Below are positions 41,810 to 61,283 of a stretch of DNA of 64,000 nt, one piece after another. The DNA lies in assembly GCF_902501965.1 (NCBI RefSeq), contig NZ_CABWID010000018.1:62001-126000 (forward strand), written 5' to 3'. The notes beneath the pieces were generated by a model. The model was given only the letters and a program-made list of their open reading frames with translations. It searched no databases and was not told the DNA's origin. Positions within the stretch are counted from its first letter, which is position 1, and each line of letters begins with the position of its first letter. This DNA is from Collinsella sp. AK_207A (lineage in GTDB: Bacteria > Actinomycetota > Coriobacteriia > Coriobacteriales > Coriobacteriaceae). A program made the translations under genes and the position numbers.

Positions 41810-41946
41810 CCGTGTTGTGAACGCCCAGGTGTCGGCATTCGGGGAGTTGTGAACGCTGCATGCACAACTCGGTTTTCGATATGCGGATTGACCTGCGGAT
41901 CCTCCGCCGCGCTTCCCCGTGGGAGACGGACGGCGTTCACAACTCG
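41810..41946. repeat. CCGAGTTGTGAACGC repeat cluster, island A
   Basis: Four copies or near-copies: forward at 41810-41824 and 41842-41856, inverted at about 41861-41873 and 41932-41946. The middle two form a hairpin GAGTTGTG (41844-41851)/CACAACTC (41863-41870). The same four-copy order recurs at 61146-61283. The whole intergenic region 41526-42316 shows no credible gene; a frame ending MCRDCGARWMLK is open but not convincing. Confidence 0.8.
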
Positions 41947-42011
41947 GAATATCCGATGGGGAACCCGCGCAGAGAGACGCCTCCGGCATCCCCCGAGGAG
42001 CACTGAGGAAC

Positions 42012-42283
42012 GTTGCTAAGCAAACCTGCCACCAAGTCCCCGTCCCGCGACGGTTGCTAAGCAAACCTGCCACGAGGCACCACGCCCCCAGCAGTTGCTA
42101 AGCAAACCTGCCACCAGCCGGCGGTTGCTAAGCAGATATGCCTCCAAGACCTCTTTTTCAGGCCCTTGGTGGCAGATCTGCTTAGCAACTCCCTCCTGAT
42201 GGTCCATCTGCTTAGCAAACCTCCCTCAGGTGGCAACTTTGCTTAGCAACGCCCCCCCTCAGGCGGCACGTCTGCTTAGCAAC
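42012..42283. repeat. GTTGCTAAGCA repeat array, island A (4 forward, 4 inverted units)
   Basis: Units of about 25 bases, consensus GTTGCTAAGCAGA followed by TCTGCCACCAAG. Forward units start at 42012, 42053, 42094 and 42124; inverted units end at 42189, 42219, 42250 and 42283. Spacing is 41, 41 and 30 on one side and 30, 31 and 33 on the other. The innermost pair spans 42124-42189 (66 bp) and could fold into one long hairpin. It lies between the prfC stop and addB. Confidence 0.9.
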
Positions 42284-42316: not shown

Positions 42317-43933
42317 CTAGAACGTCACGTTGCCGAACTCCGAGAGCTTGAGGTTCGGGTTGTGCTCGATCGCCCAGTCCACGTTCCACGGACGCGTGAA
42401 GAGCAGCAGCTTGCCGCCGCGCATGTCCTCCACGGGCTTGGTGTCGCGCGTGAGATCGAGGCGTGCCAGGTCGATCTCGCCGGGCGCGTTGGCGATCCAG
42501 CGGATGTCGGAGTACGCGAGGTCCTGTCGGCGCACCTCCACGTGGTACTCGCTACGCAGGCGCTGCTCGAGCACCTCGAACTGCAGGACGCCCACCGCAC
42601 CCGCGATGACGCTCTCCATACCGCCGCCCACCTCGCGGAAGATCTGGATGGCACCCTCCTGGGCGAGCTCCTCCATGCCCTTCACGAACTGCTTGCGGCG
42701 CAGCGTGTCCACCTGGGTGATGCGGGCGAAATGCTCCGGCGCAAAGGTGGGGATGCCCGCGTAGCGCACCTTGGGAGCGCCCATGGACACGAGCGTGTCG
42801 CCGATGGCGAAGAGGCCGGGATCGAAGAGGCCCACGATGTCGCCGGCAACCGCGGTGTCCACCGTGGAGCGGTCATCCGCCATCATGGACGTGCCGCTCG
42901 CGAGCTTGACCTTGCGCCCGCCCTGCACGTGCCAGGCATCCATGCCGCGTTCGAACTTGCCGGAGCAGATGCGCAGGAACGCGATGCGGTCGCGATGGTT
43001 CTTGTCCATGTTGGCCTGGATCTTGAACACGAAGCCCGAGAAAGACGAGGTCGCAGGGTCCACGAGCTCACCCGTCTCCGCATCCTCGTGCGGCGTGGGC
43101 GCAGGCGCGAGCTCGAGGAAGCTCTCCAGGAAAGGCTCGACGCCGAAGTTGGTGAGCGCGGAGCCGAAGAACACCGGCGAGAGCTGGCCCGCACGCACGG
43201 CATCCAGGTCGAACACGCTGTCAGCGCCGTCCAGCAGCTCAATGTCGTCCATGAGGGTGTGGTGGTTCTCCTCGCCGATCAGCTCGTCCAGCTCGGGCGC
43301 GCCCAGCTCGGCCTGGATCTCGCCCACCTTCTTGGCGGCGTTGGCGCGGCCGTCGCCGTCGAACGCGATGACGCGACGGGCGCGGCGGTCGAACACGCCG
43401 CGGAAGTTGCGACCGGACCCGATGGGCCAGTTCATGGGATAGGTGCGGATTCCCAGCACGGACTCGATCTCGTCCATGAGGTCGAAGGGGTCGCGGGTGT
43501 CGTGGTCGAGCTTGTTCACGAAGGTGAAGATGGGGATGTGGCGCAGCGTGCATACGCGGAAGAGCTTGATGGTCTGCGCCTCCACGCCCTTGGCACCGTC
43601 GATCACCATGACCGCGGCGTCCGCCGCCATGAGCGTGCGGTAGGTATCCTCGGAGAAGTCCTGGTGGCCGGGGGTATCCAGAATATTCACGCAGCAACCC
43701 TGGTACTCGAACTGCAGCACCGAGGAGGTGACGGAGATGCCGCGCTGCTTCTCGATGTCCATCCAGTCCGAGACCGCGTGGCGCGCGCTCGACTTACCCT
43801 TGACGGAACCGGCCGTCTGCACGGCCCCTCCGTAGAGCAGAAGCTTCTCGGTGAGCGTGGTCTTGCCGGCGTCCGGGTGCGAGATGATGGCGAACGTGCG
43901 GCGGCGGCGAATTTCCTCGGGCAGGGGCAGCAT
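42317..43933 (-). CDS. prfC: Peptide chain release factor 3
   Basis: A 538-residue translational GTPase that recycles RF1 and RF2. G motifs: ISHPDAGKTTLTEKLLLYGGAVQ (G1), RGISVTSSVLQFEY (G2), LDTPGHQDFSEDTYRTL (G3), FVNKLDHDTRDP (G4). The RF3-specific insert SARHAVSDWMDIEKQRGI and the long C-terminal domains (GVLQFEVLEQRLRSEYHVEVR) are present. Length matches the family. It is the only plain-function gene between two repeat-bearing or divergent regions. Confidence 0.96.
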   Translation of the reverse strand: MLPLPEEIRRRRTFAIISHPDAGKTTLTEKLLLYGGAVQTAGSVKGKSSARHAVSDWMDIEKQRGISVTSSVLQFEYQGCCVNILDTPGHQDFSEDTYRTLMAADAAVMVIDGAKGVEAQTIKLFRVCTLRHIPIFTFVNKLDHDTRDPFDLMDEIESVLGIRTYPMNWPIGSGRNFRGVFDRRARRVIAFDGDGRANAAKKVGEIQAELGAPELDELIGEENHHTLMDDIELLDGADSVFDLDAVRAGQLSPVFFGSALTNFGVEPFLESFLELAPAPTPHEDAETGELVDPATSSFSGFVFKIQANMDKNHRDRIAFLRICSGKFERGMDAWHVQGGRKVKLASGTSMMADDRSTVDTAVAGDIVGLFDPGLFAIGDTLVSMGAPKVRYAGIPTFAPEHFARITQVDTLRRKQFVKGMEELAQEGAIQIFREVGGGMESVIAGAVGVLQFEVLEQRLRSEYHVEVRRQDLAYSDIRWIANAPGEIDLARLDLTRDTKPVEDMRGGKLLLFTRPWNVDWAIEHNPNLKLSEFGNVTF

Positions 43934-59971: not shown

Positions 59972-60673
59972 CTACCACTCGATTTCCGCGATCGGCGTGG
60001 GCGAGGCATTGACCTCCTCGCTCATCACCCGACCGCTCTTGAAGCGAATCAGGCGGTCGGCCATGGGTGCCAGCGCGGAGTTGTGCGTGATGATCACAAC
60101 CGTGATGCCGTCGCGCCGGCACGTATCCTGCAGCAGTTGCAGCACCTGCTTGCCCGTCTGGTAGTCGAGCGCGCCCGTCGGCTCGTCGCAGAGCAGGAGC
60201 TTGGGGTTCTTGGCGAGCGCGCGGGCAATGGACACGCGCTGCTGCTCGCCGCCGGAGAGTTGGGCCGGGAAGTTCCCCATGCGCTCGCCGAGGCCGACTT
60301 TCTCGAGGGTTTCCACCGGATCGAGCGAATCGGGGCAGATCTGCGACGCGAGCTCCACGTTCTCGAGCGCCGTGAGATTGGGAACCAGGTTGTAGAACTG
60401 GAAGACGAAGCCCACGTCGCGACGACGGTACTCCACCAGCTCGTCCTCGCGCGCGTGGGAGATGTCGCGGCCATCCACCGTCACCGTGCCGGACGTGGCG
60501 GTATCCATGCCACCGAGGATGTTCAGGGCCGTGGTCTTGCCTGCGCCCGAGGCTCCCAGGATGACGGCCAGCTCGCCGCGCTCCACCGAGAACGTTGCCC
60601 CGTCGAGCGCGCGGACCTCGCCCGCGCCCTCGCCGTAGACCTTGCACACCTCGTTGAAGTCGATGTACGCCAT
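59972..60673 (-). CDS. LolD/MacB-type ABC transporter ATPase
   Basis: A 233-residue ATPase: [53 protein letters not shown] (Walker A), signature [19 protein letters not shown], Walker [13 protein letters not shown], and the switch His in [13 protein letters not shown]. This is the MacB/LolD subgroup that drives FtsX-type permeases, and its partner follows after 2 bases. A start at ATG 60671-60673 is likely. Upstream lies the second repeat island. Confidence 0.93.
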
Positions 60674-60804: not shown

Positions 60805-61103
60805 GTTGCTAAGCAGATGTGCCCCAAGGGGCAGTTGCTAAGCAGATTTGCCAGCAGGAGGGCAGTTGCTAAGCGGTTTTGCCACTAGGCAGTCAGTTGC
60901 TTAGCACATGTTCCACCAGGGGGCGCTTGCTAAGCAGATTTGCCGCGAAGGCCCCGTTTTAACGTCCTTAGTGGAAAACCTGCTTAGCAACGTCCTCTTG
61001 GTGGCACGTCTGCTTAGCAACGGCCGCGGAGGAGGGGCTTGGTGGCAGGTCTGCTTAGCAATAGCCGCGGAGGAGGGGCTTGGTGGCAGGTCTGCTTAGC
61101 AAC
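60805..61103. repeat. GTTGCTAAGCA repeat array, island B (5 forward, 4 inverted units)
   Basis: Forward units start at 60805, 60834, 60865, 60896 and 60926; inverted units end at 60991, 61021, 61062 and 61103. Spacing is 29, 31, 31, 30 on one side and 30, 41, 41 on the other. The innermost pair spans 60926-60991 (66 bp), the same length as in island A. The last two inverted units lie in a 41-bp tandem duplication. It lies between the LolD-like ATPase gene and the small membrane protein gene; the 790 bases around it hold no credible gene. Confidence 0.9.
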
Positions 61104-61145: not shown

Positions 61146-61283
61146 CCGAGTTGTGAACGCCAGACGCCCCGGCTGGCGGAGAGTCGCGGGAAAATAGCGG
61201 GTCGGCGCGCGTATCGAAAACCGAGTTGTGAACGCTCCGCTCATAACTCGCCAGAACCACGGCCGCCGGCGTTCACAACTCGG
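61146..61283. repeat. CCGAGTTGTGAACGC repeat cluster, island B
   Basis: Forward copies at 61146-61160 and 61221-61235, an imperfect inverted copy at about 61242-61251, and an inverted copy at 61269-61283. The middle pair forms GAGTTGTG (61223-61230)/CATAACTC (61242-61249), the same 27-base hairpin size as in island A, with a G-U instead of a G-C pair. TATCGAAAACCGAG extends the unit in both islands. Confidence 0.8.

Follow-up and report, generated by a model that had tools for sequence, protein, structure and literature searches.

Convergent repeat islands in a Collinsella genome as candidate binding-site arrays of a predicted AbiEi-like nuclease

Two kinds of described system come closest to the repeat islands considered here. 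In RAYT/REPIN systems a gene is accompanied by family-specific inverted repeats dispersed between genes, and one genome may hold several such genes, each with a distinct repeat (PMC3116915). The promoters of AbiEi and Rv2827c, on the other side, contain 23-bp inverted repeats, as many as four in tandem, to which these proteins themselves bind (PMC7319586). The islands share features with both, and the gene associated with them encodes a predicted AbiEi-like protein with an additional nuclease-like domain. The window that was analysed is a stretch of 64,000 nucleotides (C18:62001-126000) from the draft genome of Collinsella sp. AK_207A, which comprises 2.12 Mb in 24 contigs.

Island A (42012..42283, assigned to neither strand; C18:104012-104283 in the genome) consists of four forward and four inverted units arranged about a 66-bp core (42124..42189, likewise without a strand), which is formed by the innermost forward and inverted units, F0 and R0, and has a T5 centre. 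The remaining forward units lie on the plus strand at 42012..42036 (F3, the outermost), 42053..42077 (F2) and 42094..42118 (F1), and the inverted units on the minus strand at 42195..42219 (R1), 42226..42250 (R2) and 42259..42283 (R3, the outermost), so that the gaps run 41, 41 and 30 bp, then the core, then 30, 31 and 33 bp. Island B (60805..61103, no strand; C18:122805-123103) has five forward and four inverted units, gaps of 29, 31, 31 and 30 bp before its 66-bp core (60926..60991, no strand), and gaps of 30, 41 and 41 bp after it. Re-counting and re-measurement agree with the original prediction on the unit numbers, on neighbour gaps of 29-33 or 41 bp in both islands, on innermost pairs of exactly 66 bp (centre TTTTT in A and TTTT in B on the plus strand) and on the presence of minus-strand genes on both sides of each island. 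These include a prfC-like gene for peptide chain release factor 3 (42317..43933, minus strand), whose stop lies 34 bp from island A, and an ABC-transporter ATPase-like gene to the left of island B (59972..60673, minus strand), both named from sequence, without a Pfam scan. Allowing at most one mismatch, TTGCTAAGCA occurs at 22 sites in the window against 1.25 expected, a count reached by no shuffle. The units had further been placed on one face of the DNA helix; the gaps are compatible with this arrangement, but phase coherence, calculated over all gaps but one, is about equal (0.82-0.85) for periods of 10, 10.5 and 11 bp, and helical phasing is therefore not specifically demonstrated. What the spacing data do demonstrate is a set of discrete spacing classes and a fixed core.

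Both islands belong to a set of 12, with 92 units in total, that is spread over eight contigs of the genome (C4:40.4k; C10:264.1k, 265.7k, 401.5k and 420.0k; C14:119.8k; C15:167.6k; C16:92.2k; C18:104.0k, which is A, and 122.8k, which is B; C19:118.8k; C24:59.8k). All 12 run from forward units on the left to inverted units, have an innermost pair that spans exactly 66 bp and, wherever a further unit is present, show 30 bp as the first spacing outward on either side; all remaining spacings fall at 28-34 or 41-42 bp. This fixed order and these spacing classes exclude copies spaced and oriented at random genome-wide, the outcome the original prediction had set against itself. The unit of about 25 bp has the consensus GTTGCTAAGCA-n6-CC-n3-AAG (92 units); six positions are invariant in every unit, whereas the n6 stretch carries only 0.3-1.0 bit per position. 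The second half is partly hypervariable, yet one C within it is found in 92 of 92 units, and TTGCTAAGC is nearly invariant beside hypervariable positions. Unit number varies at the island ends, and outer neighbouring units on the same arm are alike, as expected from tandem duplication.

The islands resemble BIME/REP clusters in being intergenic groups of inverted units, and differ from them in their convergent F..F-core-R..R order and invariant 66-bp core. A REP unit is a hairpin palindrome with a GTAG or CGTC tag, a description that does not fit the present unit, which forms no REP hairpin alone (TTGCTAAGCAA has a 1-nt centre) and which, unlike REPINs, is built into multi-unit arrays of fixed pitch about a fixed core. 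CRISPR arrays, with direct repeats in one orientation, unique spacers and cas genes, do not fit either, the islands having forward and inverted blocks and near-identical adjacent units. The earlier statement that known REP/BIME elements and CRISPRs lack this combination thus holds for the features tested, although the gene-repeat logic set out below resembles that of RAYT/REPIN.

Searches for the element itself returned little beyond this genome. The core, at up to three mismatches, had no convincing match in 100 relatives, the exact core was absent from the GTDB contigs and the viral contigs searched, and a core model found few weak matches in 44 congeners. Two full-length matches in one congener, G013 (E < 1e-4), were set aside as a different 66-bp hairpin family, since the stem differs. 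That family is dispersed in G013, has a AAAGCATGTCGCATCTGACACG stem (L387 2362-2421; L388 2358-2417), and has one copy near an apparent tyrS, the same neighbour as that of the C4 island here; no partner gene for it was found. A de novo scan of 760 kb from three genomes (G018, G016 and G036) gave no comparable arrays, only one CRISPR-like array and short palindrome clusters. The CRISPR-like array lies in G018 (L136 1717-2206) and has a 61-bp period.

The 66-bp core folds as a hairpin with an A4/T4 tip. As single-stranded DNA, the island A core, with which the 11 other cores can be aligned, folds at -25.5 kcal/mol (z = -9.6) and the island B core at -16.8 kcal/mol (z = -5.8). The variable stem of three islands forms a palindrome, perfect or nearly so, whose sequence is unlike that of the other islands. 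Compensatory pairing changes in the core exceed those in column shuffles and slides, with a covariation score, carried mostly by three islands, of 0.202 against 0.112 in shuffled data (reached in 0 of 500 shuffles), and F0 agrees with R0 more than with reshuffled partners (p = 0.0007). The outer pairs F1/R1 and F2/R2 show no excess of long-range matching, so that the whole island is not one covarying rod. Palindrome correction by mutation during replication could also yield such covariation, which is accordingly no proof of a selected hairpin.

The probable explanation of the islands is to be sought beyond the window. Two of them, I2 and I3, bracket a gene there (C10:264315-265331, minus strand) and separate it from both of its neighbours, a LuxR-type gene and purB, and the stop codon of the bracketed gene, TAA, forms part of the GCTAAGC in the outermost I2 unit. 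Another repeat, which we call the sister family, leads to a homologue of this gene. It was seen as 55-bp palindromes, TCTCRATCTGTAACA-25-TGTTACAGATYGAGA, upstream of prfC in some genomes of the C. aerofaciens group, and among 45 genomes of the genus its pattern is found in 27, of which 24 have 23-58 copies and three have one. Successive sister sites point in opposite directions and keep strictly to a 40/41-bp pitch, and the palindromes have hypervariable interiors about an A4/T4 centre. In G043 the gene that lies between two sister arrays is a homologue of the C10 gene (43% over 325 aa). The orthologues in C. aerofaciens have sister arrays on both flanks at every locus readable on both sides, two further loci at contig ends having arrays on the readable side only; the number of sites shifts in even steps, from two to eight upstream and from two to ten downstream, and the nearest upstream site is constant at -72 to -75.

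The orthologous gene occupies one locus, with the same upstream (left) neighbour, in about 20 species. Of 24 array-rich genomes 20 have an intact copy, and of 21 array-poor ones, by the same criterion, none has (Fisher p = 5e-9, a value that is not corrected for phylogeny and that overstates independence because the genomes are related). Three array-rich genomes (G014, G010 and G009) show no orthologue, and in G024 the gene is broken (L300 1972-3430) while sister arrays still stand on both sides, so that keeping the arrays does not require the gene. Dispersal, furthermore, is not universal, as two other paralogues in the present genome have their repeats essentially only around their own gene, bar one site with three mismatches.

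The sister arrays also change in ways that bear on their upkeep. At prfC there are two, three or four palindromes, or none. No target-site duplication was readable at this presence/absence locus, and the one locus chosen for comparison with an empty site occurs in no more than two close relatives, every copy with its array. The array-free sites upstream of prfC (L070, L072, L074 and others) carry a short inverted repeat, ACAAATTC ... GAATTTGT. In one orthologous sister array (L289, L290 and L291) the first two palindromes are conserved among G043, G019 and G032, while the interior of the third is wholly different in G043, as if it had been swapped in one event.

The pairing of gene and bracketing repeat extends well beyond this genus. 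Members of the nuclease family were found in 112 of 300 genomes of the class, in 30 genera, with one to five paralogues per genome. We scored each locus by the 11-mers common to the 700 bp upstream and the 700 bp downstream, with a threshold of at least six. This was reached by 77% of 48 family loci (68% of 31 nonredundant ones) against 3.3% of 421 control ORFs of similar size, by 62.5% of 40 loci from other genera and families, and by 65% of 52 nonredundant GTDB loci against 2.1% of mismatched flank pairs, the three locus sets overlapping in part and some scoring loci possibly sharing simple repeats. About a third of the family genes have no detectable shared flanks. The bracketing sequence varies from gene to gene, as does the pitch, which is 20, 30 or 40 bp depending on the family; one locus, L267, has a 20-bp-pitch array with a core on both sides of the gene. 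The association between gene and arrays is well supported.

A further example lies beside the two islands of the window. An element composed of CCGAGTTGTGAACG sites stands about 65 bp to the left of island A (41810..41947; order + + - -, steps of 32, 17 and 75) and again, with mirrored steps of 75, 17 and 32, 43 bp to the right of island B (61146..61283). As a further test of the gene-repeat link we examined the gene between two copies of the CCGAGTTGTGAACG family (C18:31974-33532), and it is a divergent member of the same nuclease family (E = 1.8e-7) whose C-terminus looks Vsr-like by eye. The two repeat families that adjoin at islands A and B therefore belong to two different members.

The 339-aa protein encoded at C10:264315-265331 is predicted to combine an AbiEi-like winged-helix DNA-binding part with a C-terminal Vsr/DUF559-like PD-(D/E)XK nuclease domain. 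It has no Pfam match itself; among 27 relatives, Pfam finds DUF559 in four and AbiEi_4, marginally, in four (best E 0.007). In an alignment of 27 diverse members G208-E209-S210, D243, E261, G264, K267 and R289 are invariant and D263 is nearly so. For the AlphaFold2 model (pLDDT 89.6) Foldseek ranks Rv2827c, which belongs to the AbiEi family, first (prob 0.98, E 3.3e-3), and the C-terminal domain alone matches R2 retrotransposon proteins, the homing endonuclease I-Bth0305I, TnsA and Vsr (E 0.02-0.6; prob 0.47-0.92 for the last three). By E-value these structural matches are weak, none falling below 1e-3, and we regard the assignment to an AbiEi-like and nuclease-like fold as likely, not strong.

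In size and arrangement the repeats around the family genes match the 23-bp repeats of AbiEi and Rv2827c, the inverted repeats being adjacent and about 23-25 bp long in both cases. The family differs from AbiEi and Rv2827c in its additional C-terminal nuclease-like domain and in its arrays, which flank the gene on either side and are also scattered in the genome, and from the AbiE type IV toxin-antitoxin system in that no AbiEii-like partner is seen beside the gene in this genome. It is like REPIN/RAYT in that a gene is bracketed by its own dispersed inverted repeat, the gene here encoding a predicted AbiEi-like protein with a PD-(D/E)XK-like nuclease domain instead of a Y1/HUH transposase of the RAYT type. 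A Y1/RAYT gene was considered as the partner and rejected; the genome has a single Y1_Tnp match (C16:12714-13007), and the 3.3 kb read about this gene contain no TTGCTAAGCA unit. Just upstream of the Y1/RAYT-like gene (L087 1084-1968; C16:12714-13007) is a palindrome, GTGGTACATTGGGACTGTCCCACTGTACCAC. Tn7-type ends contain multiple protein sites of about 22 bp. The multiple sites and the TnsA-like fold of the C-terminal domain recall Tn7-type ends with TnsA and TnsB, whereas no transposase complex is seen here and the orthologous gene stays at one locus across its species.

Taken together, we think it likely that the islands are cognate binding-site arrays of the predicted AbiEi-like nuclease, in a partnership of the RAYT/REPIN kind that uses an unrelated enzyme. 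Binding of the unit by the protein is quite probable. Of the roles proposed originally, a multi-site target of a DNA-binding protein is kept, with a candidate now named by genomic association; a segregation or DNA-organising protein and a terminator block are unsupported, as the associated protein has a nuclease-like domain and the islands are scattered on eight contigs. In this model, each unit of about 25 bp would be bound by one protein molecule, as with AbiEi or Rv2827c on their 23-bp inverted repeats, and the inverted 66-bp core would present the nuclease with paired sites or a hairpin. A cut or nick at the core, followed by repair or template switching, could then allow arrays to gain or lose whole units, to convert each other and sometimes to reach new intergenic sites. 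Presence and absence of arrays, whole-unit gain and loss and interior replacement suggest such nuclease-dependent upkeep or spread as a tentative reading, slightly short of an even chance, and homologous recombination could also explain all three.

The alternative that survives best, though we consider it unlikely, is that the arrays are operators through which the AbiEi-like protein autoregulates from its upstream array, the islands forming its regulon, with nothing moving and the nuclease domain inactive or otherwise used. AbiEi and Rv2827c do autoregulate through their 23-bp inverted repeats (PMC7319586), and the constant upstream site in C. aerofaciens would suit such a role, as would the position of the prfC-proximal sister array in a divergent promoter region. 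This reading sits poorly with the arrays directly downstream of the gene, with the finding that most islands with assignable neighbours adjoin gene 3' ends, with the lack of a common theme among the adjoining genes and with the invariance of nuclease-motif residues in the 27 diverse members. Less probable again is an immunity device, in which the nuclease would attack foreign DNA and be titrated or restrained by the arrays in the chromosome, these serving as antitoxin-like decoys. The restriction-like C-terminal domain and the change of array family from gene to gene are in keeping with this, and PADLOC AbiEi models do match the AbiEi-type N-terminal region, but with a marginal score (E = 0.0015), and the two paralogues with repeats only at their own gene argue against it.

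Elements that work as RNA, their transcribed hairpins serving as terminators or stabilising mRNA 3' ends, would account for a stable, covarying core and for the several islands that lie 31-102 bp beyond a gene end, yet this is a very improbable reading, as there is no U-tract after the stem, Rfam above its gathering score reports only two tRNAs in 97 kb around eight islands and none of the islands, many flanking units are kept at fixed pitch on both sides, and the arrays are tied to a gene for a predicted DNA-binding nuclease. Passive REP/MITE-like repeats that accumulate by intergenic insertion and surround the gene by chance are the least credible explanation, for while intergenic location and varying unit number are those of ordinary interspersed repeats, the fixed 66-bp core with its conserved motif and the bracketing that recurs throughout the order in most members of the family (2-3% in controls), by a different repeat each time, are not.

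Returning to the partnership of nuclease and array, we put at about even the prospect that these pairs form an undescribed class found throughout the Coriobacteriales, in which AbiEi-Vsr fusion nucleases co-evolve with private, rigid arrays that they maintain and occasionally spread, with specificity changing from gene to gene and several pairs per genome. No paper on such a nuclease gene-array pair was found in the open-access literature, and our view of its novelty applies to that scope. If this is true, the origin and upkeep of a large intergenic repeat set in common gut bacteria would be tied to one uncharacterised nuclease family, which would stand beside RAYT/REPIN as a second such system with an unrelated enzyme. 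Natural protein-site pairs, dozens of them and differing in sequence, would open the specificity code of the AbiEi fold to direct tests and bring the function of AbiEi-DUF559 fusion proteins within reach.
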